Part shown: piece by piece, positions 3,001-17,798 of the stretch
Numbering within the stretch: position 1 is the first letter of the stretch
Layout: each line of letters starts with the position of its first letter
NCBI RefSeq assembly: GCF_900459405.1
Contig: NZ_UHFN01000004.1
Span: 1 to 17,798, forward strand
Length of the DNA stretch: 17,798 nt
Origin: Streptococcus hyointestinalis
GTDB taxonomy: Bacteria > Bacillota > Bacilli > Lactobacillales > Streptococcaceae
Direction: 5' to 3'
Notes under the pieces: model-generated
What the model saw: the letters and a program-made list of their open reading frames with translations, nothing else
The model's database searches: none
Told to the model about the DNA's origin: nothing
Position numbers and translations under genes: made by a program

Positions 3001-5448
3001 TAAGATTGCTGAAATGCAAGATGTCCTAGACTATGCCGAAGAAAACGATGATAGAATTAGCTACAAGCAAGCGAAAGCTCTTGAGCGTAACTATGAAGCG
3101 CAGTTGATGAAAGTGCGTGACAGCTCACAAAGTCGTACCGATGATTTCATTGATTTTGAATCCCTCGGTGTTGACATGCTTTTTGTCGATGAAGCGCACA
3201 AGTACAAAAATGTACGTCCACTAACTCGTTTAGGTAACGTAGCTGGTATTGGTAATACAACTGCTCAACAAAATATTGATATGGAGATGAAAATTCGATC
3301 TATTCAAGAAGAGCATAACTACACCAATGTTGTGTTTGCGACTGGTACTCCAGTTTCAAACTCTATTAGTGAAATGTACACAATGATGAACTACATCCAA
3401 CCAGATGTCCTTGAGGACTTTGGTATGGATAACTTCGATGCGTGGGTCGGTGCGTTTGGTATTATTGAAAATAGTCTCGAACTAAACCCTACAGGTGATA
3501 AGTATGTCTCACGTAAACGTTTCTCTAAATTTACCAACCTACCAGAGCTAATGGCTATTTATCGTATCACAACCGATATTGCCATGACTGAGGACCTAGA
3601 CCTTCCTGTTCCAGAAGAAGAAAAGATTGCTGTTAAAAGTGAATTAACAGACGCTCAAAAAGAATACCTTAATCTTTTAGTTGAGCGTTCTGATAAAATC
3701 AAATCTCGTTCTGTAGATCCAACAGAAGACAACATGTTAAAAATCACGAGTGAAGCTCGTAAGTTGGCTCTTGATATGCGACCCTTAACGAAAAAAAATA
3801 CACCTTGTCTGACAATAACAAGATGTTGCAAGTCGTTGATAGAGTAGAAGCTATCTATCACAGAGAACAGGCTCACCGTGGCACACAAATGATTTTTACT
3901 GACCTTGGAACTCCTCGCCCTAACCAATTTTCAATCTATCAAGAGTTGAAAGACCTTTTGGTAGAGCGTGGTATCCCAGAAGAAGAGATTGCATTCATTC
4001 ACGACGCCAATACGAAAAAAGCTAAACTTCAATTGTCACGTCAAATGAATGCTGGTGAAATTCGTGTTTTAATCGCTTCTACTGAAAAAGGTGGTACTGG
4101 TCTTAACGTCCAACGTCGCTTGAAAGCTGTACACCATTTAGACGTCCCTTGGAAGCCTAGTGATATTATTCAACGTAACGGTCGTATCGGTTCGTCAAGG
4201 TAATATCTATAAGAAAGTGCAAGTGTTCCACTATATCACTACTGGGTCATTTGATAACTACTTATGGCAAATCCAAGAAACAAAGCTCAAATATATCACT
4301 CAAATTATGACGTCTCGCAATCCTGTGCGTGCTGCAGAGGATATTGATGAACAAACCATGACAGCATCCGATTTTAAGGCGATTGCTACTGGTAATCCAT
4401 ACCTTAAATTGGAAGATGGAACTCGATAATGAGTATGAGCTGCTTGTCAATCGCAGAAAAGCATGGGAGCGTTCTTATCATGACTCTATTCGCCGCATGG
4501 ACAATGCAAAACAAAACCTTAAATTGATTGATATTCGACTTGAACGAATTCGTGAGGATAAAGTCACTGCTAAAGCCAATCGTTTAGAACCTGTCCTTGA
4601 TGAGGATGGAAAAGTTGTTAATGACGGTTTTGAAATGACTTTTAGTAACGGCAAAACGTTTACTAAACGTGACGCTGCAGGTAATCAACTTCACTTTGAC
4701 ATGCAAATGAAATGTGTCACCAGAACGAAAACTTGTGACACTGGCTACTTATCGTGGTTTCGCATTGAAAATGCAGACTATGGAAAAACCATACAAAATG
4801 GGTACGATATTGAAATTAAGTATTGTCGGTGCTAATTCATATCCTATCAAAGTTGATTTTGCGAGTCCGTTAGGGACAATTCAAAAAATTAACAATGTCA
4901 TTGCTGGTTTAACCAAAAAAGAGCAAAGCATGCTAGAAGATAAAGAAAATTACCAAATTGTTTTAAAACGTGGCTTAGTAGATGATACATTCTCCGATCA
5001 AGCTCGTCTTGACTATGTTGAAGCAAAACGTGCTGTTATCTGTCCTCTTGTTGAGAACGAAGAGACCACCACTGAAGAAATCGAAAAAGCGATTGCGGAG
5101 TTCGAGAAAAACTATGAAGGTGAAATCGTTGCTCAAGAAACAGTAACATCAGTAGAACGTTATAGCGAAAACTATGACGAAAGCGAAAGTGAGGTTGTAG
5201 AAGAAATCGAAGAGGTTAAAGAGGAAACAACAAAAGTTGGTAATGCCGGTGACAATGCAACTGAATTTTCAGCACTTGTTGATGAATTCCTAACTGAAGC
5301 AAATGAATTTCTTAAACAAGCTAATGACCTGTTCGATGATGTCCTATCTAAAAACGTTCTGGAAACAGAAGTTAAGATAACGTCTCCTTATATCGAACAA
5401 AATATAAGCGTTTATGAAGAAGTTTCATTGTTTGATTTTATTGCCTAA
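20..5448 (+). pseudogene. DarB-like DNA methyltransferase / SNF2 helicase fusion, multiply frameshifted
   Basis: Conceptually a single protein of about 1,800 residues of the N6-adenine methylase plus DEAD/SNF2 helicase family found on plasmids, ICEs and P1-like phages, where such proteins protect or remodel incoming DNA. Seen in order: YVGWGGL near nt 170; SAM-binding motif DPSMGTG near 385; TNVPFGD (variant of NPPF/Y) near 575; Walker A HEVGSGKS near 2695; DEAH box VDEAHKYKN near 3190; ATGTPVSNS near 3340; C-terminal helicase lobe with STEKGGTGLNV near 4085 and QRNGRI near 4170; acidic tail to 5448. The ATG at 20 follows GGAGG at 7-11; an ATG at 5 overlaps that site and is less likely. Reading frame changes near 345, 1030, 1280, 1505, 2328, 2410, 3795, 4190, 4425 and 4712, mostly one-base gains or losses in short homopolymers. 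Segments between breaks stay open and conserved, so decay is recent or the breaks are sequencing errors. Confidence 0.85.
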
Positions 5449-5459
5449 CTTTTCCTTGG

Positions 5460-5482
5460 TATAGCTAGTTTTTCTAGCTATA
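5460..5482. terminator. Hairpin after the methylase-helicase gene
   Basis: Perfect 9-bp stem TATAGCTAG / CTAGCTATA with a five-T loop, 12 nt after the stop codon at 5448. No U-tract follows on the plus strand, so it may be a weak terminator or an RNA-stabilising 3' hairpin rather than a classical intrinsic terminator. Confidence 0.45.
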
Positions 5483-5531
5483 CTAACTAAGTCCCTAAAA
5501 TGCTATCATATTAGGGGTTTAGCTAGTATAG
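5478..5531. repeat. Long imperfect inverted repeat at the insertion point of the first TnpB element
   Basis: Arms 5478-5498 and 5511-5531 match over 21 bp with three differences, separated by a 12-nt loop. The right arm ends exactly where the TnpB element begins, and joining 5530 to the far flank at 6995 extends the palindrome a little. It follows the helicase gene and could be its original terminator, a structured 3' end or a transposition hotspot. Confidence 0.6.
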
Positions 5532-5710
5532 TGAACCACCCCTACCTACGCATACGCTAAGAGGTAGGGGCTTCTTGGGTAGAGTGCAGACTTATTGATT
5601 AGCTGACTAACCAACAGAGGTTACACTATTTTACCAAGCTATCCCCGTAGTTCCTACGGTTCATTTGTTTTGGACTAGGCTAATCTCAATCCTTCATTTA
5701 GGATATTGAT
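5515..5710 (-). ncRNA. Predicted omega RNA (reRNA) of the first TnpB element
   Basis: In IS605-type elements the TnpB guide RNA runs from the 3' end of tnpB through the right-end hairpin into flanking DNA. Here the minus strand after the tnpB stop holds a small hairpin CCGTAG-GAA-CTACGG near 5645-5660, then the right-end hairpin 5539-5570 and the TTCAC end. The next 16 nt outside the element (complement of 5515-5530, TATACTAGCTAAACCC) would be the guide. The 5' limit is approximate. Confidence 0.5.
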
Positions 5711-6784
5711 ACTAGCGTTGATGTCTCTATCATGATGAGAACCACAATTCTCGCAAGTCCAATTTCGGATATTGAGTGGTTTCTTTCCAGAGTTGTGACC
5801 GCAATCTGAACATAGTTGAGATGATGGATACCAACGACTGATTTTTGATACTTGTTTCTCGTACCATTCAGCCTTATATTCCAACATTCTCACAAATTCA
5901 GACCATGAGACATCGCCAATAGATTTCGCTAACTTGTGATTAGTCATCAGGTTTTTACTCGATAAGTCCTCAATACAGATAATATCGTGGTTCTTGATAA
6001 TCTCCATACTGAGCTTATTGAGAAAGTCCTTACGCTTATTGGCAATCTTTTCATGGATTTTAGCAACCTTGATACGTTGCTTTTGGTAATTAGCACTCTC
6101 GGATAGTTTCTTTCCTGCCTTTTTAGCACCCAAGGCACGTCGAGATAGTATTTTTTGTTCCTTAGCCAACTTCTTAGACAGGTTCTTCAGAAACCGCTCA
6201 TTACCGATTTTCTCACCAGTGGATAGAATGGCGAAGTTTTCAATACCTAGGTCGATACCAACAGAAGTACCTGTCTTTGGAAGGGGCTGGACATCGCTTT
6301 CACAGAGAATAGAAATGTAATACTTTCCAGTTTCTGTCATGGAGATAGTTGCACTTTTGATTGTACCAATCATTTGACGATGTTGTTCCAATCTAACCCA
6401 ACCAATCTTAGGGAGCTTGACTTTACCGTCAGAAACGGCTATTGTACCATTTTGGTTATTTGTTCGATAAGACTGACGGTGGCGTTTTGACTTGAATTTA
6501 GGAAAGCCAAATCCAGAGTTGAAGAATGATTTATAGGCTTTTTGCAAGTTGAGCTGAACATTGGCAAGTGCCAAACTGTCAACCTCTTTCAGCCAAGGGA
6601 ACTCTTTCTTATACTGAGCTGGTGTGTTTTTGAGCGTTTTACCAGTCTCCTCGTAATACTTGATTTTATCTGCAAGCATCATATTCCAGATAGCACGAGA
6701 TGAACCGAATGTTTTCGCAAACATGATACGCTGGTCAAGGTTGGGATATAAGCGAAATTTATAGGATTTTTGCTTAACAGTCAC
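5675..6784 (-). CDS. tnpB: TnpB RNA-guided nuclease (IS605 OrfB family)
   Basis: A 369-aa, full-length TnpB. It is an RNA-guided DNA nuclease that cuts the empty donor site and so helps the element persist. RuvC-I aspartate D178 lies in VGIDLG, RuvC-II glutamate E272 in CIEDLS, a zinc finger uses C325/C328 and C344/C347, and RuvC-III D354 lies in [10 protein letters not shown], so all catalytic residues are present. The N-terminal [10 protein letters not shown] strand is typical of the family. The start is GTG at 6784 behind GGAAGGAG. The gene is undamaged, in contrast to the helicase gene next to it. Its promoter (6817-6846) carries a sequence box that is repeated upstream of the operon at the right end of the window. 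Confidence 0.93.
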
Positions 6785-6816
6785 ACAGAACTCCTTCCCA
6801 AGTTTTTTATACTACT

Positions 6817-6873
6817 ATTATACCTCTAGTAGCCTCAATACTCCAAGTCGGTTGGACGATACTATCCTACGAA
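6817..6873 (-). promoter_or_regulatory. Promoter of the first tnpB with repeated upstream box
   Basis: On the minus strand a -35 TTGGAG (6841-6846) and -10 TATAAT (6817-6822) are 18 bp apart. Directly upstream, 6853-6873 is a 21-bp block that recurs without mismatch at 17716-17736, again next to TTGGAG-18-TATAAT. The bases just after the -10 are also similar at both places. Confidence 0.7.
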
Positions 6874-6943
6874 TTTGACTGCTTATACTTTAACCTCTAT
6901 TTTTGGGGGCGATGATTACACATTGAGTCCTATGCCATATCCA

Positions 6944-6990
6944 AGCCCTTACATCCCACCACCTAAGAGAGGTGGGGGAATGTAAGGGCT
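6944..6990. repeat. Left-end hairpin of the first TnpB element
   Basis: AGCCCTTACAT at 6944-6954 and its complement ATGTAAGGGCT at 6980-6990, with an inner CCCACC/GGTGGG pairing. The size and place match the left-end recognition hairpin of IS200/IS605 elements. Confidence 0.7.
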
Positions 6991-6994
6991 GTTA

Positions 6995-7290
6995 GTTAAA
7001 ATACCAACATAAAAATATATAGATATAACTAAGTATATATTTAGGTAAAAATAAAGGGGTAAAAAATTAACGAGAAATCTAAATATAATGATGTATTTAT
7101 GGGAATATTAAGGTATTTATAGTGACAAATATACTGCTTTATTGTACAATAGGACAATAGAGGGATTATTATAATATATTTCGACATAACTCTAGGAACT
7201 GTATTGTGAAAAGGGATACTTCATAAAATCTATAAATCTATAAATTTATAGACTTTGTGACATTGTTAACCGCTTAATGGGAAAAAGATG
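6995..7290. other. AT-rich intergenic stretch with short repeats
   Basis: No gene is seen. The stretch is very AT-rich and holds direct repeats of TCTATAAA and a perfect 14-bp palindrome CTATAAATTTATAG at 7238-7251. It also has one copy of GTGACATTGTTAA (7257-7269) that recurs at 8494-8506, and GACTTTGT twice (7251 and 7293). It could be an operator region for the promoter at 7291 or part of a replication origin; neither is shown. Confidence 0.4.
7257..7269 (+). repeat. Direct repeat GTGACATTGTTAA, copy 1
   Basis: The same 13 bases occur at 8494-8506 in direct orientation, 1,237 bp away, so that the two copies bracket the operon 7291-8472. Copy 2 lies in the centre of the inverted repeat beside the recombinase gene. 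Confidence 0.5.
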
Positions 7291-7319
7291 TTGACTTTGT
7301 TTAGTAGAAAAAGTATAAC
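7291..7319 (+). promoter_or_regulatory. Sigma-A promoter of the 7369-8432 operon
   Basis: TTGACT at 7291-7296 and TATAAC at 7314-7319 with the optimal 17-bp spacer. The predicted start near 7326 leaves a leader of about 43 nt ahead of the ATG at 7369. The palindrome 7238-7251 lies about 40 bp upstream and may bind a regulator. Confidence 0.75.
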
Positions 7320-7368
7320 TTTTCTAAATACGGCTCCTCAAGGAAAATAATGGATAGGGAGTCTTAAC

Positions 7369-8067
7369 ATGGACAATACTACGCATGTTACTGTTAATAG
7401 CTTAGTTGATGAGTTAAGCGACTATGCTAGACTTGATACTTCTTCAAAACTTTATGAAGGTATCATCAGCGATTTCATTGATGGAGTAGGTTTACCAGAC
7501 ATCTGCGAAAGGCATACCCTGAATAAGAATATTCAGCTTGCTGAACGCACGATTAGGGGTAAGTTGAAGGAGATATTTAAAGATAATACCTTGGTGGACG
7601 CTGATGTTATTAACAATATTATGGTAACTTATTTCAGACTGTTGTTCTTCCAGATGTTGGTTGAGGGCGAAAAAGAACTCGTTAAGTTCAGAAAGAATAA
7701 TCGCATTGTTCGATTAACAGGAAGATCTAGCTTCATCGAGGGAGCTGAAAGGTATTTAGGTAATTTACCTTACGGTTTATTAGTTCACTTAATCCCTCAA
7801 AACTATTTGTTTAGCTACTATGTTCAGGGGAGTAACGCTACAAAGTTTGTGAATATGATGACTAGAGTTGAAAATCGAGGGATTAGGTATAAAGATTTTG
7901 GTAAAGAACTAGGTTTTTGGGGAGAAACACTCGATGATTATATTGATAAACAGTTAGAGAAAATGAATATCAAAGTCAGTAATGGGTATCTGATTGACTC
8001 TAAAACCAAGCAACGCCTTACATTTCTCGAAGAGAAGAAGCTAGAAGCAGTAGGAGAAGTAGGTTAG
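7369..8067 (+). CDS. Unknown 232-aa protein, first gene of a small operon
   Basis: Not recognised. The ATG follows ATAGGGAGTC at a usable distance and lies about 43 nt behind a strong promoter. The protein is soluble and charged, without signal peptide or membrane segments. Residues around 45-70 (DGVGLPDICERHTLN... AERTIRGKLKEI) could form a helix-turn-helix, which would make it a DNA-binding or replication protein, but this is only a pattern reading. The C-terminal third is lysine and glutamate rich. Two small membrane-protein genes follow in the same direction and a terminator closes the unit at 8446. Its location beside AT-rich repeats and a recombinase site makes a role in element maintenance plausible but unproven. 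Confidence 0.8.
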   Translation: MDNTTHVTVNSLVDELSDYARLDTSSKLYEGIISDFIDGVGLPDICERHTLNKNIQLAERTIRGKLKEIFKDNTLVDADVINNIMVTYFRLLFFQMLVEGEKELVKFRKNNRIVRLTGRSSFIEGAERYLGNLPYGLLVHLIPQNYLFSYYVQGSNATKFVNMMTRVENRGIRYKDFGKELGFWGETLDDYIDKQLEKMNIKVSNGYLIDSKTKQRLTFLEEKKLEAVGEVG

Positions 8068-8090
8068 CAATTAAGGGGAGGTAAAGGATT

Positions 8091-8261
8091 ATGATGACTG
8101 TTTTACTTGTGTTTGTTTCATTGGTGATTGCTGCTTCTGCAATATTTGGAGCATGGGCAATTTGTAGTATCTCTAGAGAAGCTGATGAAGCAGCAGAGAG
8201 ACTTCTAAAAGATTATACCCTCAGTAAGCAGGATGTTCTAAAGAACAAGTCAATGAAATAA
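8091..8261 (+). CDS. Small membrane protein, 56 aa, unknown
   Basis: Begins 23 nt after the previous stop behind AAGGGGAGG. Residues 4-25 form one hydrophobic helix (VLLVFVSLVIAASAIFGAWAI), followed by a charged tail rich in E, D and K. This is a single-pass peptide with the tail probably in the cytoplasm. ATG at 8094 is an alternative start. No known family is recognised. Together with the next gene it forms a pair of tiny membrane proteins behind the 232-aa gene. Confidence 0.7.
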   Translation: MMTVLLVFVSLVIAASAIFGAWAICSISREADEAAERLLKDYTLSKQDVLKNKSMK

Positions 8262-8303
8262 AGCATTCTGAAGGAAAATTTGTCAAATATTGGGAGGAAT
8301 GCC

Positions 8304-8432
8304 ATGAATATCATTGTCTCTATTATTGGTATACTGTTAATATTAGCAATTGCTGGAGTGACCTACATGCTAATGATAGCAGAAGGAGAGGAGCAAGAAA
8401 ATGAATTGACCAGCAGCAAAAACAGGAGCTAG
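8304..8432 (+). CDS. Small membrane protein, 42 aa, unknown
   Basis: The ATG at 8304 is preceded by TGGGAGGAAT, a strong ribosome binding site. Residues 3-25 are one hydrophobic helix (IIVSIIGILLILAIAGVTYML), followed by an acidic then polar tail. It ends 14 nt before the operon terminator. The layout resembles a small holin-like or accessory peptide, but there is no direct evidence for toxicity. Confidence 0.65.
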   Translation: MNIIVSIIGILLILAIAGVTYMLMIAEGEEQENELTSSKNRS

Positions 8433-8445
8433 TATTAGTAAAAAC

Positions 8446-8472
8446 AAAGGACTATCGTCATGATAGTCCTTT
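8446..8472. terminator. Intrinsic terminator of the 7369-8432 operon
   Basis: Perfect 11-bp stem AAAGGACTATC / GATAGTCCTTT with a 5-nt loop, ending in TTT with A-run on the opposite side, so it may work in both directions and also stop leftward transcription from the recombinase gene. Confidence 0.8.
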
Positions 8473-8483
8473 TAAATATGTAT

Positions 8484-8521
8484 TAGCTAAATAGTGACAT
8501 TGTTAAATTGCTATTTAGCTA
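8484..8521. repeat. 11-bp inverted repeat beside the recombinase gene, candidate recombination site
   Basis: TAGCTAAATAG (8484-8494) and CTATTTAGCTA (8511-8521) are perfect inverted arms around a 16-bp centre that contains the direct repeat GTGACATTGTTAA. The right arm abuts the recombinase stop codon at 8522. XerS acts at a dif site next to its own gene and Xer arms are 11 bp, but a 16-bp centre is longer than a usual Xer core of 6-8 bp. It could instead be a 3' hairpin; no U-tract follows it. Confidence 0.45.
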
Positions 8522-9658
8522 TTATAGGTCATGTAAAGCCCTTTGTGTATCATCATTAAGGATGTGAGCGTACGTTGTTACAGATTGTGTATTTCCACCC
8601 CTATGGCCTAGTTGATGTGCCAAAAGCACCGGGTCTTTTGTAGCACCGTATAACCGAGTCGCCAAGGTATGACGAAGCTTATGAGGAGTTACTCTAATAC
8701 CGAAGCATTCAGAGTATTTTGATACAGTACGCTCAATAGCTGCGCTGCCTAATCTTCTTGGTACACCAGATTGAATTGAAAGAAACAGAGCTCGTTCTGT
8801 ATCAAGGCGTTCTTTAGAATCCTTAATATTTGCTTTTTCTTCTTTGGATAGTGATTTTCCGACTTTATAACGTTTTTCTCTAATTTCAAGATATTCTTTT
8901 AAATAACGTTTGGCAAGTGGGGCAATACTTACAGTATCATTCTCCCCCCCTTTACGAACAACGTTGACAGTTAAGTCATTAAGATTTAGATCCGTTAGGT
9001 TTGTATTTGTAGCTTCCGATAGACGTATTCCTGTAGCAAGGAATAGTGAAATAATAGCAAGGTCACGTTCCTTGTTTATGTTATAAGAAGCTAGAGCTCG
9101 ATTTGAAATCTTTTTAGGATACTCAAACTCAATAAAGTCAATAAAGGCTTGCGTCTGATCTCCTAAGAATAATTGAGATTTCATACTTGCTGCACGTGCC
9201 TGTAGAGTTTGTGTTTTTTTACTGAGCTTAATTTTTTTCATGACATTTCGGTCGAAGTAGGGCTGTCCATGTTCATCCTCAGATTCAATTGTTAGATAAT
9301 TGAATAGGCTAGATAGAGATATTAACGTACGGCTTATCGTTTTTTCAGATAATGTCTTATTTTTTGCTTGTGCAGAATTATTTAGGAGGTTTCTTTCTCT
9401 CAAATAAACAATAAAAGACTCCATGTCTTTCTTTGAAAGATTTGCTAGGGTATCTAATTGAATGTCTTTAATAGTATCTGCCGAAGTTAAGTCGGCCTCT
9501 ATAAGCCATGAGAAAAAACGTTTGTATTCTTTTAGGTACTCGTACAGAGTTTTCTGAGAGCGCCCCTGAACGACTTTAGATCGATAATACTCGTTGACAT
9601 AAAAAGGCATTTCCTCTAAGTAGGACTGGATATACTCCATAAGTTTTTCAGTTTTCAT
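8522..9658 (-). CDS. XerS-like tyrosine recombinase
   Basis: A 378-aa tyrosine recombinase. Residues such as TLYEYLKEYKRFFSWLIEA, NVMKK, NKERDLAII and the TPHKLRHTLATRLY block match streptococcal XerS, the single recombinase that resolves chromosome dimers. Active-site residues are all present: R212, K236, H326, R329, H352 and nucleophile Y363. An insertion of about 22 residues (near 268-290, lysine and glutamate rich) is not in chromosomal XerS as I remember it (about 356 aa). An element-borne version probably resolves plasmid multimers or excises the element. No good ribosome binding site lies close to the ATG at 9658 because a TnpB element begins 12 bp upstream. The apparent native promoter is now at 11286-11314, beyond that element. 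Confidence 0.9.
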   Translation of the reverse strand: MKTEKLMEYIQSYLEEMPFYVNEYYRSKVVQGRSQKTLYEYLKEYKRFFSWLIEADLTSADTIKDIQLDTLANLSKKDMESFIVYLRERNLLNNSAQAKNKTLSEKTISRTLISLSSLFNYLTIESEDEHGQPYFDRNVMKKIKLSKKTQTLQARAASMKSQLFLGDQTQAFIDFIEFEYPKKISNRALASYNINKERDLAIISLFLATGIRLSEATNTNLTDLNLNDLTVNVVRKGGENDTVSIAPLAKRYLKEYLEIREKRYKVGKSLSKEEKANIKDSKERLDTERALFLSIQSGVPRRLGSAAIERTVSKYSECFGIRVTPHKLRHTLATRLYGATKDPVLLAHQLGHRGGNTQSVTTYAHILNDDTQRALHDL

Positions 9659-9677
9659 ATGATTTTAACCGTGGAGA

Positions 9678-9697
9678 CCCCTCACTTTAGTGAGGGG
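9678..9697. repeat. Left-end hairpin of the second TnpB element
   Basis: Perfect 8-bp stem CCCCTCAC / GTGAGGGG with loop TTTA, nested inside AACCGT (9667) and ACGGTT (9702). The right-end hairpin has the same stem length and the same TTTA loop. Confidence 0.8.
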
Positions 9698-9749
9698 AGG
9701 AAACGGTTGTCCTCCTTTTTTTTAATATTACAACAACTTTTCTATCGAA

Positions 9750-9784
9750 TTCATGACTATAATATGGTATAATTAAGTCATGAA
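9750..9784 (+). promoter_or_regulatory. Extended -10 promoter of the second tnpB inside a 9-bp inverted repeat
   Basis: TGGTATAAT gives an extended -10 (TATAAT 9768-9773) with no good -35. Perfect arms TTCATGACT (9750-9758) and AGTCATGAA (9776-9784) flank it, a layout that would suit an operator or an RNA/DNA hairpin that limits tnpB expression. Confidence 0.6.
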
Positions 9785-9810
9785 AGTAATTCAATAGAAA
9801 GGGGTTAGAC

Positions 9811-11043
9811 ATGGATTTGAATCGAGTGATTAAAGCACGTATTGTGTTTGATAATCAGAACGATATTGTAAAAATGGTTGAATCACAAGAAGCGTATCGA
9901 CAAGGTTGTAACTTTGTTTCAGACTACATTTTTAATCACGGTTTTCAGTTAAATGCTACAGCATTAAACAAATTTGTTTACAGTGATTTACGTGAACAAT
10001 TCGGACTTAAATCACAAATGGCTCAAACCTGTATACGAACCGTTGTGGCACGGTATAAAACAGTGCAAACTCAATTGCGTAAACAACGTGTCTGGGACGG
10101 TTACAAGAAAGATAATCACGGGAATGAAGTTAAAAACTACATTAACAAAGATTTAGACTTTCTTTGGAAACCAATTATTTTCAGTCGTCCGCAATTAGAT
10201 TTAGTACGTAATCGTGATTACTCCTATACCAAAGACGGTAAGGTTTCTCTAAACACCGTTCATGGACGTGTGATTGTTAACCCGATTTACAACGGTTTCG
10301 AGCATTATTTCGACGGTTCATGGACACTAGGTACTGCTAAAATTCTTAAATCAGGTAAACACTGGTTTATGCACATCGCAGTAAGCAAAGAGTTAAACGA
10401 CCAAGAACCTGAAATCAGAAACGTTGTTGGTATTGACCGTGGTTTGAGACAATTGGTGACCACTTATGACAATAAAGGTAAAACGATGTTTTACTCTGGT
10501 AAACAAATTGGTCACAAACGTCGTAACTATGCACGGTTACGTAAAGAACTACAATCCAAAGGTACAAAGTCCGCTAAACGAAGACTGAAAGCTATCAATC
10601 AACGAGAATCCCGTTGGATGAACGATGTCAATCATCGTATTTCTAAGACACTCGTTGATACCTATGGTTCAGGAACTTTGTTTATGCTAGAGGATTTAAC
10701 CAATGTCACCTTTGACACTGTTTCTAAACGTAAGAAGGAAAACCGTTACGAACATCATTCCTGGTCGTTTTATGATTTGGAACAAAAGTTAGCTTATAAA
10801 GCTATAGCAAACGGTTCCCTTGTTGTTAAATCGGATGCACATTACACAAGTCAACGTTGTCCAAAATGTGGTCACATTGATAAAGATAATCGTGATAGAG
10901 CAAAACATGAGTTTTGTTGCAAACGGTGTTCTTTTAGAACCAATGACGATCGTGCAGCGAGCATGAACATTCAGTTCTTGGGAACCTTGTATAATAGTGG
11001 TGTTGAGAAACCACGTTTTGAAAAACATGAAATAAATCAGTAA
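9811..11043 (+). CDS. tnpB: TnpB RNA-guided nuclease (IS605 OrfB family), second copy
   Basis: A 410-aa TnpB of a different subgroup from the one at 5675-6784; the two share only family motifs. Catalytic D209 lies in VVGIDRG, E294 in FMLEDLTN, the zinc finger uses C350/C353 and C370/C373, and the third RuvC aspartate (D379) lies in NDDRAASMNI, so it looks active. The ATG follows AAAGGGG by 6 nt. The open frame is intact. The gene is convergent with nothing and points away from the recombinase gene that the element has disconnected from its promoter. The nuclease would use the RNA made from its own 3' end to cut the re-joined recombinase leader after loss of the element. Confidence 0.93.
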   Translation: MDLNRVIKARIVFDNQNDIVKMVESQEAYRQGCNFVSDYIFNHGFQLNATALNKFVYSDLREQFGLKSQMAQTCIRTVVARYKTVQTQLRKQRVWDGYKKDNHGNEVKNYINKDLDFLWKPIIFSRPQLDLVRNRDYSYTKDGKVSLNTVHGRVIVNPIYNGFEHYFDGSWTLGTAKILKSGKHWFMHIAVSKELNDQEPEIRNVVGIDRGLRQLVTTYDNKGKTMFYSGKQIGHKRRNYARLRKELQSKGTKSAKRRLKAINQRESRWMNDVNHRISKTLVDTYGSGTLFMLEDLTNVTFDTVSKRKKENRYEHHSWSFYDLEQKLAYKAIANGSLVVKSDAHYTSQRCPKCGHIDKDNRDRAKHEFCCKRCSFRTNDDRAASMNIQFLGTLYNSGVEKPRFEKHEINQ

Positions 11044-11206
11044 GCCTTACATGGTTTACTGTTGGGTAGCTGAAACGAAAGTTTCTTGTCAACCTGCCCC
11101 GATGTGGTAACGTTATATCTAGGAGTTTGATAAAACGTTTGTACTAGATTAGTTACTACAAGCCCGTTACTTTAGTAACGGGTAGTTGACTGTCACCTCT
11201 AAAATT
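10990..11206 (+). ncRNA. Predicted omega RNA of the second TnpB element
   Basis: Overlaps the tnpB 3' end and runs through the right end. After the stop codon, GTTG...CAAC encloses GAAAC-GAAA-GTTTC near 11060-11093, followed by AACGTT copies and the right hairpin 11163-11182. The predicted guide is the first 16 nt outside the element, TGTCACCTCTAAAATT (11191-11206). The 5' end is a guess. Confidence 0.55.
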
Positions 11207-11285
11207 TCTAGGTAAAATTTGATGTTTTAAATTGTATCAGACGGTTTGAAGAAGTGATTTTACACTTCGGACTTTTAGTAAACAA

Positions 11286-11314
11286 ATTATACTTTTTCCA
11301 CCCGAAGTTGTCAA
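11286..11314 (-). promoter_or_regulatory. Consensus promoter, apparently the displaced recombinase promoter
   Basis: On the minus strand TTGACA (11309-11314), a 17-bp spacer and TATAAT (11286-11291) make a perfect sigma-A promoter. No gene follows before the TnpB element; the leader from about 11279 to 11191 contains a small hairpin (GAAGTG/CACTTC) and AGAGGTGA, and then meets the element's right end. Across the element lies the recombinase ATG. Confidence 0.85.
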
Positions 11315-11374
11315 GAGTTTTATCACCTACCCTCTGAGAAGAGATTTTCCCTAATTCAATAACTTTTGAGTAAG

Positions 11375-11402
11375 AAAAATCAGCAAACTATTGCTGATTT
11401 TT
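11375..11402. terminator. Bidirectional intrinsic terminator
   Basis: AAAAATCAGCAA and TTGCTGATTTTT form a 12-bp stem with a 4-nt loop and T-run on both strands. It ends leftward transcription from the broken gene at 11388-11593 and shields the recombinase promoter region. Confidence 0.85.
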
Positions 11403-11593
11403 TTGTTGTTCCTGCTGTTCCTTTTCAAGTAACTTAATTATATGTTGTCGCTCTTCGTTACTCAAACTTATTTTTTTAGTTGACTTAGGACAACGTAGGC
11501 AGATGCGGCTTCCGCTCTCTTGCCTTTATCTTTTTTGTATGCGCCATCTGTAAAGATAGTATAGTTATCGACATCCTGAATGCTGCTGGTCAT
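11388..11593 (-). pseudogene. Small broken gene with RNase H-like start
   Basis: The ATG at 11593 follows AAGGAGC and opens a 41-codon frame that stops at 11468. Its residues 11-37 (YTIFTDGAYKK... ASAYVVL) look like the first two strands of an RNase HI fold, including the TDG aspartate, but the remaining catalytic parts are missing. A second frame carries LRCPKSTKK followed by SLSNEERQHIIKLLEKEQQEQQ and stops at 11388, inside the terminator stem. The two frames cross at or before a run of seven A. Either this is a truncated RNase H relic fused by frameshift to another tail, or the 41-aa peptide is the whole product. Assignment to RNase H is weak. Confidence 0.4.
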
Positions 11594-11649
11594 AATAGCT
11601 CCTTCCATAGTAACTACAACAGTCCATTTTAAACAACTATAGCTACAAA

Positions 11650-11682
11650 AGATATACCCTCATCATATCAGAGGGTATATCT
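11650..11682 (-). promoter_or_regulatory. Attenuator-like hairpin in the leader of the 11593 gene
   Basis: A perfect 12-bp stem AGATATACCCTC / GAGGGTATATCT with a 9-nt loop followed on the minus strand by TTTTG. It lies about 20 nt downstream of the predicted start (promoter 11707-11712) and about 57 nt upstream of the ATG, so it would stop transcription before the gene unless opened. Confidence 0.55.
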
Positions 11683-11706
11683 TCGTCTTATCATAGATTT
11701 GTCTTT

Positions 11707-11745
11707 ATTATACCTTATATTAGGAAAAAGGAAAGAGTACCATAG
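11707..11745 (-). promoter_or_regulatory. Promoter with TACCATA box, copy 1
   Basis: Minus-strand -10 TATAAT at 11707-11712 and the box CTATGGTACT (complement of 11736-11745) exactly 23 bp upstream. The -35 position is poor, which suggests that a factor bound at the box is needed. The same arrangement with the same spacing occurs at 14965-15003. Confidence 0.55.
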
Positions 11746-11828
11746 GTGTTGCTGCACTTCACACATAACGGTTCTTTCTATGAATAGTGAGATGTAGCTA
11801 TTCTTCTATAGATCATCCCTGTTACCAA

Positions 11829-12075
11829 CAAAAAAGTCCTACCAATAGGTTGTTTGGTAGGACTCATCCCAAAGGGGAACTTCTTTTTAAGAGCGCACCC
11901 CTCTGCCCTCTTACATAATAAGCGCTGTAGCAAGTATCAACCCTTGCTAAAGGTTAACGATTAGGAAAACATCCATAACTCCTCTTTGTGCTTTTTAGGC
12001 TTATCGCCGAGGAACAGTTTTTAAGCTCTGCCAAGCCATGCGATGCGCTTCTACCGCAAGCTCTGATGAGTTAGT
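11829..12075 (-). ncRNA. Probable structured small RNA of about 250 nt, own promoter and terminator
   Basis: A near-consensus promoter (CTGACA 12105-12110, 17 bp, TATAAT 12082-12087) is followed by about 250 nt without a convincing gene and a strong minus-strand terminator: 11-bp stem 11835-11845 / 11854-11864 followed by six T. Within it several stems can be drawn, among them GGCUU/AAGCC around a GCAG...CUGU core, UAGCAAG/CUUGCUA and AAGAG/CUCUU. It also holds AAAGAGGAGTT before a nine-codon frame (MDVFLIVNL), so it may be a dual-function RNA. No known RNA family is recognised. Confidence 0.55.
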
Positions 12076-12081
12076 ACATCA

Positions 12082-12110
12082 ATTATATCAAGAATTTAAC
12101 CAAGTGTCAG
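12082..12110 (-). promoter_or_regulatory. Promoter of the small RNA
   Basis: CTGACA at 12105-12110 and TATAAT at 12082-12087 on the minus strand with a 17-bp spacer. It lies 34 nt beyond the stop codon of the 320-aa gene and serves no open reading frame of normal size. Confidence 0.75.
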
Positions 12111-12143
12111 TTCATAGCCCTGTAGTGAGTCACATGAATTAGT

Positions 12144-13106
12144 TCACTCTTCATTATTGTTTCTAAAACCAAAGAGAGGATCATCGTCCAAAAATGGGTT
12201 ATCATCAATTTCATCTGAAATAGAAACAACGGAGTGAGAATTGCTTTCGTCTACTTTTTCAGCTAGTGAGGTTACTGCAGCTAGTATATCAGCAACCTTC
12301 TTGTCTACAACGTTCTCCAAGCCCTCTATTTTGAGCATAGCGTTCTTTAATTCAGCCTGCAATAGATTTGTATTCTCTTTTTCTTTGCTGCTCTCTATGC
12401 GCTCACCAATGGCTTCTAGTGCGTCCTTTTTCTCACTGGACATTTGTTTGTCCACTACGATACTATCAAGTGTTAAATCACTTGGTTTTCGTGTAATGCC
12501 ATCCAAGGCCCTTATGGGCTTATTCTGTACAATAAATAGATATGTGTTGACATTAAAGAACGGTTGCTCAAATATCACAGCTTCCATTAGCTTTTGATAA
12601 AATGCTTGGTTCTCTTCGTCTAATAAGTACAGGATAGGAAGAATAGTGTTGCTATAGACAATAGAAGTCGAGTTCAAAAGAATAATAATATCATCTCTTC
12701 TGAAAAGGTCGATACCAGATTTCTCAAAAATCTTCACGGTTGTCAAACAGTGAACATCATACAACATTTTAAAGCGCAGGAGTTCCTCTGGAGAAAAGTG
12801 GCCTATTTCATCGAGAATAAAGAGAACAGAGTATCCTCTTTCATGTGCCTTTGCAACAAAATCTGCTTTACTAGTGACAACGACATTAGTCGACGCAGCA
12901 GTTTGGTTACCACCTAGCCAGCTTATATTTCTTTGTGTCTTCCCTAGTTCACGGATTTCAATTGGAACATTGGCGGTGTCTGGTATGTAGATAATTACTT
13001 TGTTTGAGGTATTTTCTTTAGTTAAACTGTAAAGTTTTCGGTAGAATGGTGAATTTGTAGTCTCTGGTCGAATATACCCCTCTACATAAAGATTAAGTTT
13101 AGTCAT
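12144..13106 (-). CDS. Unknown 320-aa protein with coiled coil and acidic tail
   Basis: Not recognised. The start ATG at 13106 lies inside the last codons of the upstream gene (8-nt overlap), so translation is coupled and the two products probably work together. Residues 1-110 contain alternating strands and helices, with VLFILDEIG near 94-102 resembling a Walker B-type strand, although no P-loop is seen upstream. Residues about 225-290 (SSEKKDALEAIGERIESSKEKENTNL... AAVTSLAEKV) form a likely coiled coil. The C-terminus is strongly acidic and ends in DDDPLFGFRNNNEE. No membrane segments. Position behind a relaxation-type winged-helix protein suggests a role in plasmid transfer or segregation, which is inference only. 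Confidence 0.85.
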   Translation of the reverse strand: MTKLNLYVEGYIRPETTNSPFYRKLYSLTKENTSNKVIIYIPDTANVPIEIRELGKTQRNISWLGGNQTAASTNVVVTSKADFVAKAHERGYSVLFILDEIGHFSPEELLRFKMLYDVHCLTTVKIFEKSGIDLFRRDDIIILLNSTSIVYSNTILPILYLLDEENQAFYQKLMEAVIFEQPFFNVNTYLFIVQNKPIRALDGITRKPSDLTLDSIVVDKQMSSEKKDALEAIGERIESSKEKENTNLLQAELKNAMLKIEGLENVVDKKVADILAAVTSLAEKVDESNSHSVVSISDEIDDNPFLDDDPLFGFRNNNEE

Positions 13107-14556
13107 TTACTGGAGTTTCCATTTCTTTTTCTTCTAAAAACACATTATTGATGTTAAAACGAGTTGTTTTTAATTCATGGTTGCCGTCCTCTTTTAATTT
13201 AAGAACTTTTAAGGCTGATAGAATATTGTTGGTACTAGCTTCTTTGAGGTCAAGAAATAGAATATTATCTAAACCATCATAGCTATCATTGACACGGTAT
13301 TTATCATTTATTGCTTGAATTTGCTCTATTGAATCAACGATGATGAGTAACAAGTGTTTATCGCCGTTTTCATCAAAGCCATTTTTTAGGTGTCCAAAGT
13401 GACGAAAAACATCCCAAAGGTTATCCATGTCACTGTGCTCTCCGCTCATGGTAACAAACGGATAAAGGTCAAAACAGGCTATTTTACCATTCTTTCCTCT
13501 AACTTGGAACTGACCGTTAAATCTCAGCTCTGGAACATACATCGTCTTTTCAACGATACGTGGCTTTGCAGCTCCTTTATTTTTGGCAATGGATTGAGCA
13601 TATTGCTGTGCTTGGTCGTTTAGTGTTTTATTTTTTTGTTGAGTGGCTTTCTTATTTGGTAGCTCGAAGGAAACCTTATAATCAAAACGCTTCATATAGT
13701 GAAACGGAACGTATTTAACAAAGTCGTCTTTTAATCTGAAATTGAGGTATGCGTCTACTATCTTCCAACAACGAATAGGAGTAAATCGATCCTTTTCTTT
13801 GAGGATTTCTCTCCACTTATAAGCAAACTCACGACTGATGAGGTTCATAATCATGAGATAGGTAGTTCCATTGCTATAAATAGAAAAGGCTTCACCGGTC
13901 AAATTCTCTGCTCGTTCTCCTTCAATATGGGGATCACGTTTAAACTTCCATCTATCCACCAAATAGTATTTGTGTAGCCTATCAAGTGAGTTACTAACCT
14001 GTTTTGTAGTTGCCCCTGTCTCCCTTACAATCTGTAGGAACTGTACGTTTCTAAACGTGGCAATAAATAGCAAGATTTGTCTATCTAGGTCACTAAGTAA
14101 CTGGTCTATGATGATATAATCGTTTTCTGTGTAGTAATCAATAATTACCTTATGTGACTTTGCCCCTTTTTTTATTTCATGGTTGTTAATCATCAAATTG
14201 CCATTGTTTTCGTCTAACTCCAAACGAGATGATTTATGATGGGCAACATTTTCAATGTTTTCATTGTTTAAAGTCACAAAAAAAGGGAAATGATTTACTG
14301 GCGGCACATGAATTAGCTCGAAATCATCATAATACGATTGTGAAAAACGAGAAACAGCAGGCGATACTAGCTGCTGTGTTTGTTTATCAGTAAATACACC
14401 TAGTTTTTTTAAAGATTTTCCGGTAAAGTTAGACAGGTAGTCTCCTTTAGAGTTCTGGTTCTTATTGTTTGCCTTTAGTTCGACAACTTTTTTAGGGCTT
14501 AGATTTTCCTTTAAGTTCTTAAAAGTTGTCCATAGGTTATTTTTCTCTTTTACCAT
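13099..14556 (-). CDS. Winged-helix protein, possible replication-relaxation family
   Basis: A 485-aa protein beginning at the ATG at 14556, which follows CGGAGGGG; an upstream TTG at 14592 is in frame but overlaps the previous gene and lacks a better site. Residues about 152-203 (LLSDLDRQILLFIATF... TTKQVSNSLDRLHKYYLVDRW) form a clear winged helix with the pattern of the plasmid replication-relaxation family. Near 339-368, PELRFNGQFQVRGKNGKIACFDLYPFV fits the strand-rich second domain of that family, perhaps a degenerate nuclease fold. The N-terminus is basic. It is preceded by RHH remnants and overlaps the next gene. The family call is moderate; members are linked to plasmid mobilisation or replication. 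Confidence 0.75.
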   Translation of the reverse strand: MVKEKNNLWTTFKNLKENLSPKKVVELKANNKNQNSKGDYLSNFTGKSLKKLGVFTDKQTQQLVSPAVSRFSQSYYDDFELIHVPPVNHFPFFVTLNNENIENVAHHKSSRLELDENNGNLMINNHEIKKGAKSHKVIIDYYTENDYIIIDQLLSDLDRQILLFIATFRNVQFLQIVRETGATTKQVSNSLDRLHKYYLVDRWKFKRDPHIEGERAENLTGEAFSIYSNGTTYLMIMNLISREFAYKWREILKEKDRFTPIRCWKIVDAYLNFRLKDDFVKYVPFHYMKRFDYKVSFELPNKKATQQKNKTLNDQAQQYAQSIAKNKGAAKPRIVEKTMYVPELRFNGQFQVRGKNGKIACFDLYPFVTMSGEHSDMDNLWDVFRHFGHLKNGFDENGDKHLLLIIVDSIEQIQAINDKYRVNDSYDGLDNILFLDLKEASTNNILSALKVLKLKEDGNHELKTTRFNINNVFLEEKEMETPVND

Positions 14557-14581
14557 GTTACCCCTCCGTCTAAGTCTTGAG

Positions 14582-14788
14582 TTATCCTTCAAAGGTAATT
14601 TGTGGGTTATTCTTTATAAAATCAATGAGGAGCTGATAAAATAAAGCACTCATTGTAAGTTTCATCGATCTTGCTTTAGTAGCAAAGTCCTTGTGGAGTT
14701 CTTCTTCTACGAGACATACAATTTTGACCTCTTTCCCTCTGCTGCGCTGCCCTAGGTCAATAGTAACCGAAAAACTTCTCTGGACCTT
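14582..14788 (-). pseudogene. RHH-like protein, no usable start
   Basis: An open frame of about 68 codons ends 25 nt before the start of the winged-helix gene. Its end reads VEEELHKDFATKARSMKLTMSALFYQLLIDFIKNN, shown here in part (EELHKDFATKARSMKLTMSA), and has the strand-helix-turn-helix look of a ribbon-helix-helix DNA-binding protein such as a MobC-like or CopG-like regulator. No ATG, GTG or TTG with a ribosome binding site opens it, and it is cut off upstream by TAA at 14789-14791. The likely explanation is a lost start or a frameshift against the adjacent broken frame at 14752-14907. An ATT start cannot be excluded. Confidence 0.5.
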
Positions 14789-14907
14789 TTAAATAATTGA
14801 CTACAATATAGTAAAGCACTGTTTTCTACTTAGTTTGCTCGTTTAGCCATTTTATCAAGTTCAGCTGCACATTTGCCATCTACTGTACATGAGATTTGTT
14901 TTGTCAT
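14752..14907 (-). pseudogene. RHH-like protein cut by a stop codon after 25 residues
   Basis: The ATG at 14907 follows AAGGA and opens MTKQISCTVDGKCAAELDKM, typical of the strand and first helix of a ribbon-helix-helix protein. A TAA at 14830-14832 stops it after 25 aa. Reading on in the same frame gives VENSALLYCSQLFKRSREVF, which fits the missing turn and second helix, up to TAG at 14752. A single-base change therefore probably inactivated a full RHH regulator. It is the first gene behind the promoter 14965-15003 and overlaps the second RHH-like frame. Confidence 0.5.
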
Positions 14908-14964
14908 ATTTAGTTAATCCTTACTTTCTTCGATTTGTCTTTGTTCTCTGTACTGATACTTTTC

Positions 14965-15003
14965 ATTATATCAGAAAACCTGGAAATGAAAACAGTACCA
15001 TAG
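14965..15003 (-). promoter_or_regulatory. Promoter with TACCATA box, copy 2
   Basis: Minus-strand TATAAT at 14965-14970 with CTATGGTACT (complement of 14994-15003) exactly 23 bp upstream, as at 11707-11745. Predicted to drive the operon 14907-12144. The distance from the start to the RHH ATG is about 50 nt. Confidence 0.6.
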
Positions 15004-15027
15004 TTGTATAGGAAATACATCAGCATG

Positions 15028-15051
15028 ACACTAAAATTGACATTTTAGTGT
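15028..15051. promoter_or_regulatory. Perfect 10-bp palindrome with TTGACA in its centre
   Basis: ACACTAAAAT (15028-15037), TGAC, ATTTTAGTGT (15042-15051). The loop creates TTGACA, and TATGAT follows 15 bp later, so this could be a rightward promoter under an operator. No gene follows to the right before the antitoxin promoter at 15204; the stretch 15052-15203 holds only imperfect inverted repeats (GAGTAC...GATACTC, and TTTTAGG...CCTAAAA) and no gene I can support. Confidence 0.4.
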
Positions 15052-15203
15052 AAAAAATATGATACAAAAAGAGTACCGAAAACGCAGAATATCGATACTC
15101 TCAAACAAATATTTTTATGAAAAGAAAAAGTTTTTAGGATTGACTATATGATAGTTCATAGCCCTAAAAGTTTTCTTAAACAGTGCTATCTTTGTTTTCT
15201 TGT

Positions 15204-15352
15204 TTGCCATTTGTCTCAAAAATGGTATAATGATTATAGAAAAAGAGCTGAGCGGCTAACTCAGCTCCACGTAGAACCGTTGAAGACGGCAGCAAAGTTT
15301 ATTGTTATTAAAAATAACCGCTACTCCGCTAAAGTTAGACGATTATTTTTTT
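15204..15352 (+). ncRNA. Orphan antitoxin RNA, copy A of the type I cassette
   Basis: Promoter TTGCCA-16-TATAAT (15204-15209, 15226-15231) with extended -10. The RNA would start near 15238, fold GAGCTGAG/CTCAGCTC (15245-15252, 15260-15267), carry GTAGAACCGTTGAAGACGGC, and end in a weaker stem with a run of T near 15352. Layout and motif match copy B at 15590-15735, where the RNA faces a toxin gene. Here the toxin gene is gone. Confidence 0.6.
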
Positions 15353-15388
15353 GTCATGTTGATAAGTTCAAGTATGAGCTTTCTTTCA

Positions 15389-15433
15389 GAAAACAAGAGC
15401 CACCGTCTTAACTTTTCTACATAGTCTATTATA
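15389..15433 (-). promoter_or_regulatory. Leftover toxin promoter and 5' leader, copy A
   Basis: TATAAT (15428-15433) followed by a leader whose 33 bases at 15389-15421 are identical to 15892-15924 in copy B. Past 15389 the toxin open frame is missing: only 37 nt separate this block from the antitoxin terminator, against about 157 in copy B. Transcripts from here would encode no toxin. Confidence 0.65.
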
Positions 15434-15450
15434 CCATATACAAAACAAAA

Positions 15451-15477
15451 AACTTTCTACCTAAAAAGTAGAAAGTT
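15451..15477. terminator. Terminator, copy A
   Basis: AACTTTCTAC / GTAGAAAGTT with a 7-nt loop and T-runs on both strands. Counterpart of the terminator at 15955-15980. Confidence 0.75.
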
Positions 15478-15479
15478 TT

Positions 15480-15596
15480 TTAGTAGAGAGGTGTTATACC
15501 AAAGAACACCATCAATATTTTGTAAACTACGACAACTCCAAGTGGGAATGCTAGAAATTTGTTAAAATGTCTACAATAATATTTTGTATTTGCTAT
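15480..15596 (-). pseudogene. Relic of the 42-aa membrane peptide, copy A
   Basis: The 3' part reads FLAFPLG, then VVVVYKILMVFFGITPLY and a stop, closely matching the C-terminal 26 residues of the intact peptide at 15985-16113. Upstream the match fades (YYCRHFNK) and an in-frame TGA precedes it without a start codon. It marks the left copy of a tandem duplication. Confidence 0.65.
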
Positions 15597-15735
15597 TCAT
15601 CTGCTAAATGGTATAATAGAAGTAGAAAAGGAGTTGAGCAGCAACTCAACTCCATGTAGAACCGTTTAAGACGGTGACAAGTAGGGCAAGAAATAATCCG
15701 TCCACCGGTCAAAGTTAGGACGGATTATTTTTGTC
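15590..15735 (+). ncRNA. Antitoxin RNA of the holin-like type I toxin, copy B
   Basis: Promoter TTGCTA-16-TATAAT (15590-15595, 15612-15617), predicted start near 15624, hairpin GGAGTTGAG/CTCAACTCC, then GTAGAACCGTTTAAGACGGT, then a 12-bp terminator stem (15692-15703 / 15718-15729) ending in T-run. The terminator overlaps the end of the toxin frame on the other strand. The ACCGT...ACGGT segment can pair with the AAGACGGT segment in the toxin leader (9 of 10 positions, counting wobbles), which gives a second contact besides the 3' overlap. Confidence 0.7.
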
Positions 15736-15829
15736 TATCAAGCATAATTAAAGCAATAACAAGTGTTAGTAAGCTGATGATGAAACCACCAAAAGCGAAC
15801 ATAACCTGCAGTGCTTCAGCGACTGACAA
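15725..15829 (-). CDS. Holin-like type I toxin peptide
   Basis: A 34-aa peptide, SVAEALQVMFAFGGFIISLL followed by a second hydrophobic stretch and the charged end DRQK. This is the pattern of the putative holin-like toxin family (Hol-Tox): short acidic start, AFGxFII, one membrane helix, basic tail. It starts with TTG at 15829, 9 nt behind AGGAGG. The message starts near 15924 and its 3' end overlaps the convergent antitoxin RNA, which would block translation or trigger decay. Such toxins depolarise the membrane when the antitoxin is lost and so keep plasmids in the population. The use of TTG may hold expression low. Confidence 0.8.
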   Translation of the reverse strand: MSVAEALQVMFAFGGFIISLLTLVIALIMLDRQK

Positions 15830-15830
15830 A

Positions 15831-15878
15831 TTAGGTCTCCTCCTCTCCTTTAGATTTTGATGTATTGCCCACAGGCAT
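15831..15878 (-). CDS. Possible 15-codon leader peptide ahead of the toxin
   Basis: MPVGNTSKSKGEEET, ending 1 nt before the toxin TTG. The ATG at 15878 abuts GAGGTG; a GTG at 15872 would have better spacing to it. The last codons form the toxin's AGGAGG, so translation of this leader would cover or couple to the toxin start. Could also be chance. Confidence 0.35.
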   Translation of the reverse strand: MPVGNTSKSKGEEET

Positions 15879-15930
15879 CACCTCACTTTCGGAAAACAAG
15901 AGCCACCGTCTTAACTTTTCTACAGATTTT

Positions 15931-15936
15931 ATTATA
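15931..15936 (-). promoter_or_regulatory. Toxin promoter, copy B
   Basis: TATGGTATAAT on the minus strand gives an extended -10 with TATAAT at 15931-15936; no clear -35. It starts the toxin message near 15924, about 95 nt ahead of the TTG. Confidence 0.65.
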
Positions 15937-15954
15937 CCATATACAGAGCAAAAA

Positions 15955-15980
15955 AACTTTCTATTTAAAAATAGAAAGTT
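15955..15980. terminator. Bidirectional terminator between the toxin promoter and the 17514 operon
   Basis: AACTTTCTAT / ATAGAAAGTT with a 6-nt loop and long T-runs on both strands. It lies 5 nt after the stop of the 42-aa peptide and insulates the toxin promoter from the operon. Confidence 0.8.
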
Positions 15981-15984
15981 TTTT

Positions 15985-16113: not shown

Positions 16114-16117
16114 ACAC

Positions 16118-16771: not shown

Positions 16772-16786
16772 AGGCAGTTGCCCCCT

Positions 16787-17514: not shown

Positions 17515-17576
17515 AGATTTTTCTCCTTATTTTCCCCTTCGTTTTTAACATAAAGATGTTTAATTGATATACTATT

Positions 17577-17623: not shown

Positions 17624-17679
17624 TAAAGTATCATTCAAGTCATAAATATATACGCTGATATGTCATTTTAGATACTTCT

Positions 17680-17736: not shown

Positions 17737-17798
17737 CTTTACCTTGTTTATCGACAACTCATTCTACAACTAAAGTAGTTTATTTCTTGTCTGCTATG

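Follow-up and report, generated by a model that had tools for sequence, protein, structure and literature searches.

A plasmid-borne XerS/dif module of Streptococcus hyointestinalis with a probably self-inverting segment

How does a recombinase gene fare when a transposable element lies between its start codon and its apparent promoter? The question is raised by a 17,798 bp stretch of Streptococcus hyointestinalis DNA (contig NZ_UHFN01000004.1 of assembly GCF_900459405.1; hereafter the window), in which a gene for an XerS-like tyrosine recombinase is separated by a TnpB element from a TTGACA-17-TATAAT sequence directed at it. A first-pass annotation took that sequence for an ordinary promoter, and proposed that the insertion may have silenced the recombinase. 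Here, we find it probable that the locus is a plasmid-borne XerS/dif module with a self-inverting segment. The features on which the argument turns are collected in Table 1.

The window is the entire contig C4 of a 2.55 Mb assembly in 7 contigs, and a second copy of the region is found in contig C2 (213,008 bp), with which C4 is wholly redundant in the contig alignment. The outer flanks of the two copies are collinear, window 1-7321 matching C2:173438-180762 (+) and window 11284-17798 matching C2:184725-191237 (+), whereas the inner segment is reversed (window 7304-11301 matching C2:180745-184742 (-)). C2 contains window 7322-11286 exactly as its reverse complement, but not in the forward sense. 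One segment bounded by inverted repeats is hence present in both orientations in a single assembly, as in site-specific inversion, and to judge from the sequence the window is one isomer of an invertible plasmid segment. Outside the junctions C4 and C2 differ by 28 one-base gap columns and by no substitution, and no gap falls between window 4711 and 14781, so C4 looks like an unpolished contig of the alternative isomer of the same plasmid. An open reading frame (ORF) of SNF2 type at window 1-5448 is fragmented in the window and open in C2 over the stretch fetched; its copies differ by small gaps, as expected of an unpolished contig.

The crossover is confined by differences in the arms to the 12-mer GAAAAAGTATAA, found at 7307-7318 (+) and 11287-11298 (-). 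This core occurs twice in the 213,008 bp of C2, where base composition predicts 0.10 occurrences. A longer pattern around it, AGWRGAAAAAGTATAAYTTKT, has four places genome-wide at 0-1 mismatch, two per contig; the next are four places at 3 mismatches, and a reversed control gave 10 matches at up to 3 mismatches. In the C2 isomer a full dif-like site, TTTAGTAGAAAAAGTATAATTTGTTTACTAAA, lies on the xerS leader, and because the full site is present there the C2 state is taken as probably parental. The partner site in that state sits between the genes for a 232-aa and a 320-aa protein and is degenerate, with 11/32 mismatches to the full site; it was identified from the observed breakpoint and the exact core, not from overall similarity.

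A contig such as C4, short, wholly redundant with C2 and interspersed with one-base gaps, might also be chimeric or mis-joined, in which case no inverted plasmid would exist. We hold such an artefact to be highly improbable, as both breakpoints fall in the same 12-bp core, one copy of which is part of the dif-like site of the very recombinase that the segment encloses, and the segment inside is exact with respect to C2. A 12-bp repeat should also be too short to mislead an assembler.

The site has counterparts upstream of xerS in plasmid relatives, where it differs from TTTAGTAGAAAAAGTATAATTTGTTTACTAAA at 2 of 32 positions in Streptococcus sp. WB01_FAA12 (locus L054), at 6 in S. equinus and S. 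ruminicola (L040/L041) and at 7 in a further Streptococcus sp. (NZ_CP135592; L042). An exact-pattern scan of genome contigs for our own site class retrieved one record, that behind L054. Five plasmids were scanned whole, and in each its own site was found once, upstream of xerS, with the next different place at 9/32 mismatches or more; in the fifth plasmid (G182) the site was chosen by position, with 11 mismatches to the S. hyointestinalis site. In its architecture and core TTTAGTAGAAAAAGTATAATTTGTTTACTAAA resembles the chromosomal difSL, which was found upstream of the chromosomal xerS of S. hyointestinalis itself and at 29 other loci, with an inner GAAAAA, mostly a CTATAA core and mostly GAAAAACTATAATTTTC. 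These 30 chromosomal loci are our own and the best-scoring 29 non-own XerS matches in a genus search of 284 genomes.

The plasmid XerS carries the complete catalytic set R-K-H-R-H-Y in an alignment of 15 XerS proteins. The tree of these 15 proteins is not resolved around the plasmid members, with 3 of 12 inner branches starred. A dif-like site also lies beside the gene in both isomers, full in C2 and hybrid in the window, in each case 1.6 kb away because of the TnpB element.

This displacement is well documented. The distance from the start of the dif core to the xerS ATG is 73-86 bp in all 30 chromosomal loci examined, and in the plasmid relatives, none of which has a TnpB element there, coordinates give a gap of 85 bp in L042, 76 bp in L054 and 424 bp in L040, where a small ORF intervenes. 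The value for L054 refers to the Met aligned with other XerS proteins, the first ATG of the open frame being 40 bp from the site. In the window the distance is 1,640 bp, and would be about 107 bp without the element. The annotation was thus right that the TnpB element separates site and promoter-like sequence from xerS, and also that the promoter-like sequence points left into a leader, then into the right end of the element and then towards xerS. Relatives bear out half of what it named as refuting: the sequence of the leader is not conserved, and the cores of L040 and L042 lack TATAAT, but position and architecture are conserved. Of 279 genus genomes 28 match window 11180-11350 at E 0.01 or better, and among the matches listed those outside our own genome are at most 43 bp long, the match in G225 being its dif-like site.

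The element itself belongs to the IS605 type and carries tnpB, whose product scores 195.1 bits for guided_TnpB (NF040570, cut-off 100) and 53.3 bits for OrfB_IS605 (cut-off 30.5), with no tnpA-size ORF beside tnpB in the ORF list of the element. Further copies lie at C2:33050-34585 (93%) and C2:21259-22453 (68% DNA and 64% protein identity). All three share the left end ATATG-[A/C]-T(3-4)-AACCG and the right end TAGTTGAC. A left end at 9669/9670, 12 bp from the xerS ATG as first proposed, is ruled out by the 93% sister copy, which matches from 9653, and the element appears to begin at about 9657-9659, where it abuts or overlaps the start codon. The start codon is likely native, since the N-terminus aligns with other XerS proteins from its first residue. 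With the element between site and start codon, xerS must be read either through the element or from it.

Translation of xerS raises a related point. As the annotation had stated, no Shine-Dalgarno sequence is seen within about 20 nt of the xerS ATG. In the order of the xerS strand AAGGAGG is followed by a hairpin, about 8 nt and the ATG, and one may speculate that the hairpin at the left end of the element brings this ribosome site near the start codon, although the GGAGG has another explanation too, as part of the stem of a terminator-like site on the opposite strand.

That TnpB parted an ordinary promoter from xerS, so that the recombinase is silent or is expressed from within the element, is very unlikely on balance. 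The element does occupy a gap that is invariably short in the chromosomal loci and short in 2 of 3 plasmid relatives, xerS lacks a nearby Shine-Dalgarno sequence, and no promoter-like match on the minus strand lies wholly inside the element (one 9/12 match straddles its right end). However, the -10 box is the recombination core, and the two isomers agree in the TnpB insertion both in its sequence and in the base at which it sits, which places the inversion after the insertion. This suggests that recombination was not abolished by the insertion at the start codon; full silencing is ruled out, unless it was the chromosomal XerS that acted.

The promoter-like sequence is real, being the sole 12/12 match in window 7000-11800, where a scan returned 23 matches of at least 9/12 compared to 17.3 (sd 4.5) in shuffles. 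What did not stand is the plain promoter reading, as its -10 belongs to an XerS/dif-type core with an inverted copy at 7307-7318. That copy is overlapped by a second promoter-like sequence, TTGACT-17-TATAAC, directed at the 232-aa gene and absent from the scan listing, in which the rule requires T at the last -10 position. The -10 thus lies in the core, and a -35 is found 17 bp away on either fixed flank, so that each flip would swap the promoter halves upstream of xerS and of the 232-aa gene, both keeping a promoter-like sequence. For xerS this sequence is TTGACA-17-TATAAT in the window (12/12) and TTGACT-17-TATAAT in C2 (11/12); for the 232-aa gene it is TTGACT-17-TATAAC in the window and TTGACA-17-TATAAC in C2. 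Matches of at least 5/6 to TTGACA occur at 0.0085 per position in this DNA, and a simple calculation from this rate puts the probability of two such hexamers at that spacing at about 7e-5, rising to 6.5e-4 if 16-18 bp is allowed. The plasmid is not alone in having site and xerS promoter overlap: in all 30 chromosomal loci examined (L011-L039 and L051) the right arm of difSL contains the -35 of a TTGAAA-17-TATACT promoter-like sequence, which suggests that bound XerS could regulate its own gene there. An AT-rich palindrome at window 7221-7260, about 30 bp upstream of the left -35 and with two 20-nt arms that are 85% complementary, may be an operator.

A switch maintained by selection, in which the flip alters expression of xerS and the 232-aa gene through exchange of promoter halves, would account for -35 elements with identical spacing on both flanks. 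Yet no sign of conservation was seen in relatives, and promoter-like sequences precede both genes in both states, so any effect would be graded. We regard selection of this kind as rather unlikely.

The sequence of events that we favour begins with the full dif-like sequence upstream of xerS, as in the C2 state, which would be the normal site and by analogy would resolve plasmid multimers. XerS would also recombine this site with the degenerate inverted site 4 kb away, which has the same 12-bp core, and such recombination would flip the intervening DNA to give the window isomer with its two hybrid sites. By that time the TnpB element was already in place between site and start codon. The adjacency of site and gene points to the plasmid XerS as the catalyst, the promoter halves may be in use, and the isomers may interconvert in a living population.

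Several observations weigh against this account. The window isomer is known from an assembly contig of only 17,798 bp with its 28 gap columns, and not from reads. By similarity the degenerate site is unremarkable, since chance places with 9/32 mismatches exist in C2 and the site is outside the five best inner 19-mers of the C2 scan. The chromosomal XerS could also have been the catalyst. A simple history, with C2 as the starting point, is furthermore complicated by the gene order of L040 and L042, which resembles the window state, and by L054, where xerS is oriented as in C2 while the homologue of the 232-aa gene is elsewhere.

Evenly balanced in our judgement is the proposal that the inversion was made by the chromosomal XerS, or was a rare accident of dimer resolution by the plasmid XerS, and has no regulatory role. 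The chromosomal difSL agrees with the plasmid site in the inner GAAAAA and is similar in its core, though its outer arms are unlike those of the plasmid site. What chiefly speaks for a rare accident is the degeneracy of the second site, together with a precedent from Acinetobacter, where, in the excerpt of PMC9947245 available, XerC/D inverts segments of plasmids between sites that are not identical but have identical spacers. Consistent with this, no second site better than 9/32 mismatches was seen in the other four plasmids, in a scan that a site as weak as ours would escape. An accident would, on the other hand, not require a -35 at 17 bp on both fixed flanks.

Table 1. Positions of the features discussed, numbered along the window
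Feature	Position	Strand	Basis or remarks
Left hybrid dif-like site: canonical left arm, core GAAAAAGTATAA at 7307-7318, degenerate right arm	7300..7331	+	7/32 mismatches to full C2 site
Right hybrid dif-like site: degenerate left arm, core at 11287-11298, canonical right arm	11274..11305	-	4/32 mismatches to full C2 site
Invertible segment with 232-aa gene, xerS, TnpB element and leader; 3,992 bp counting both 12-bp cores	7307..11298	.	C2 alignment and exact-substring check
xerS-like tyrosine recombinase gene, 378 aa	8522..9658	-	NCBIfam XerS NF003462, 428.5 bits (cut-off 267)
TTGACA-17-TATAAT promoter-like sequence; -35 on fixed right flank, -10 in core and one base beyond	11286..11314	-	Promoter scan, sequence
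TTGACT-17-TATAAC promoter-like sequence towards 232-aa gene; -35 on fixed left flank	7291..7319	+	Sequence
Leader on promoter side of element, 95 bp, ending in AGAGGTGA beside element	11191..11285	-	Sequence
IS605-type element with TnpB only; left end 9657-9659 (give or take a few bases), right end at about 11190	9657..11190	+	Sister copies
tnpB ORF, 410 aa	9811..11043	+	Pfam OrfB_IS605 and Cas12f1-like_TNB; NCBIfam guided_TnpB
Hairpin at left end of element	9667..9708	-	Fold -23.6 kcal/mol, z -2.8
232-aa protein gene, co-inverted and convergent with xerS	7369..8067	+	Homologues on related plasmids
Plasmid gene pair (320 aa and 497 aa), fixed right flank	12144..14592	-	Similar-size pairs beside xerS in L040, L042 and L054; similarity by eye

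A search of the 284 genus genomes with the DNA of the TnpB element (E 1e-40, best 2 candidates per genome) gave matches in our own genome only among those listed, the sister copy being likewise unlisted, and a search of 279 genus genomes with the TnpB protein (E 1e-120) also gave our own genome only. A HEARO RNA match on the minus strand at 11040-11190 (23 bits against a gathering score of 83, E 0.062) was ignored. For the TnpB of ISDra2, cutting of the rejoined site is the role proposed in the excerpt of PMC8612924 available. If that model holds here, the guide would be taken from the right flank from about 11191 and the target would be the rejoined leader, as is proposed in general for elements of this kind. 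The candidate guide lies within the flipped segment and is not altered by inversion; its first 18 bases, searched within the window at up to 2 mismatches, found their own copy only.

Taking these elements together, one may speculate that the Xer core serves as -10 and the fixed flanks as -35s, that the self-flip swaps the halves driving xerS and the neighbouring plasmid gene, and that, with TnpB in the leader, xerS transcripts would run antisense through guide RNA and tnpB and so set expression of recombinase and TnpB in opposition. This combined reading we consider decidedly unlikely.

Other TnpB-related sequences were noted. A second element at window 5531-7005 (ORF 5675-6784 -) has four near full-length copies on C2 outside the region (95-100%), four shorter copies on C7 (96-99%) and one more on C2 at 78%. 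In L054 a 429-aa, weakly OrfB_IS605-like protein (L054:7119-8408; 20 bits, cut-off 30.5) is encoded about 640 bp upstream of the full dif-like site.

Homologues of the co-inverted 232-aa protein were found in 4 of 284 genus genomes (G000, G180, G182 and G225), each with a further XerS match, while three genomes (G106, G207 and G211) have two XerS matches without the homologue. PLSDB holds the protein in 3 records, all three with xerS, and a homologous-protein search returned one 99% cluster. No Pfam family fits the protein or four relatives. Genome contigs held no relative of it, and viral contigs none of xerS, the site, the leader or the 232-aa protein, in scans that reach close relatives and exact patterns only. 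The plasmid stretch of G180 is identical over 12,183 bp to S. ruminicola plasmid NZ_CP046920.1.

Some further observations concern neighbouring DNA. In L042 (positions 7195-9806, NZ_CP135592) the interval from xerS to the 232-aa homologue contains genes annotated as an HNH endonuclease, a cytosine methyltransferase and an adenine methylase. A plasmid-borne gene annotated as an AcrIIA9-family Cas9 inhibitor is found near an SNF2-type gene at L093:3039-3491. Towards the right end of the window a direct repeat of about 189 bp with 84% identity occupies 15383-15567 and 15886-16073, and window 15590-15942, which overlaps it, is matched at 70-85% by other stretches of C2 and C7.

XerS is known as a housekeeping enzyme of the chromosome. 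A plasmid xerS located between a full and a degenerate site, with both states at hand, constitutes a natural substrate for studying what XerS requires of dif-type sites. It also raises the question whether promoters are frequent off-targets, when an Xer core can double as a -10 box.

Among the closest known systems is the XerS/difSL module of streptococci and lactococci, which resolves chromosome dimers and in which, according to the excerpt of PMC5357621 available, a single recombinase acts at a 31-bp site beside its own gene. The two have in common the XerS family, the location of the site upstream of the gene, the inner GAAAAA, the TATAA-type core and the catalytic residues. They differ in that the present module is plasmid-borne, has the outer arms TTTAGTA/TTACTAAA where difSL has CTTTCC/TTGAAAA, and comprises a second, inverted and degenerate site together with an inverted isomer. 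The promoter is also placed differently, with the -10 in the core and the -35 in the flank, whereas at the chromosomal loci the -35 is in the right arm of difSL.

The TnpB element resembles ISDra2 of the IS200/IS605 group, in so far as the available part of PMC8612924 describes it, in its TnpB family, in ends common among copies and in a guide expected from the right flank, but unlike that model it has no tnpA-size ORF. Inversion of hsdS segments in S. pneumoniae is the work of PsrA, and deleting xerS made no detectable difference to it (PMC4948785, as excerpted). The likeness lies in a tyrosine recombinase gene at the inverting locus and in short inverted repeats, the difference in that the PsrA system is chromosomal and rearranges specificity genes. 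A further parallel is found in Acinetobacter plasmids, for which the excerpt of PMC9947245 describes reversible XerC/D inversions between pXerC/D sites, with hybrid sites and identical spacers. Common to both are inversion on a plasmid, non-identical and opposed Xer sites with a shared spacer, and hybrids in the inverted isomer, reversibility being probable rather than observed in our case. In Acinetobacter, as far as that excerpt goes, it is XerC and XerD of the host that act, and the sites flank resistance modules, while here the plasmid's own xerS gene is inside the flipping segment. No report of a plasmid XerS flipping its own gene was found in the open-licence literature. Reversible Xer inversions of plasmids are thus known from XerC/D in Acinetobacter, and the S. 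hyointestinalis module would add a variant in which a plasmid-encoded XerS flips the gene that encodes it.

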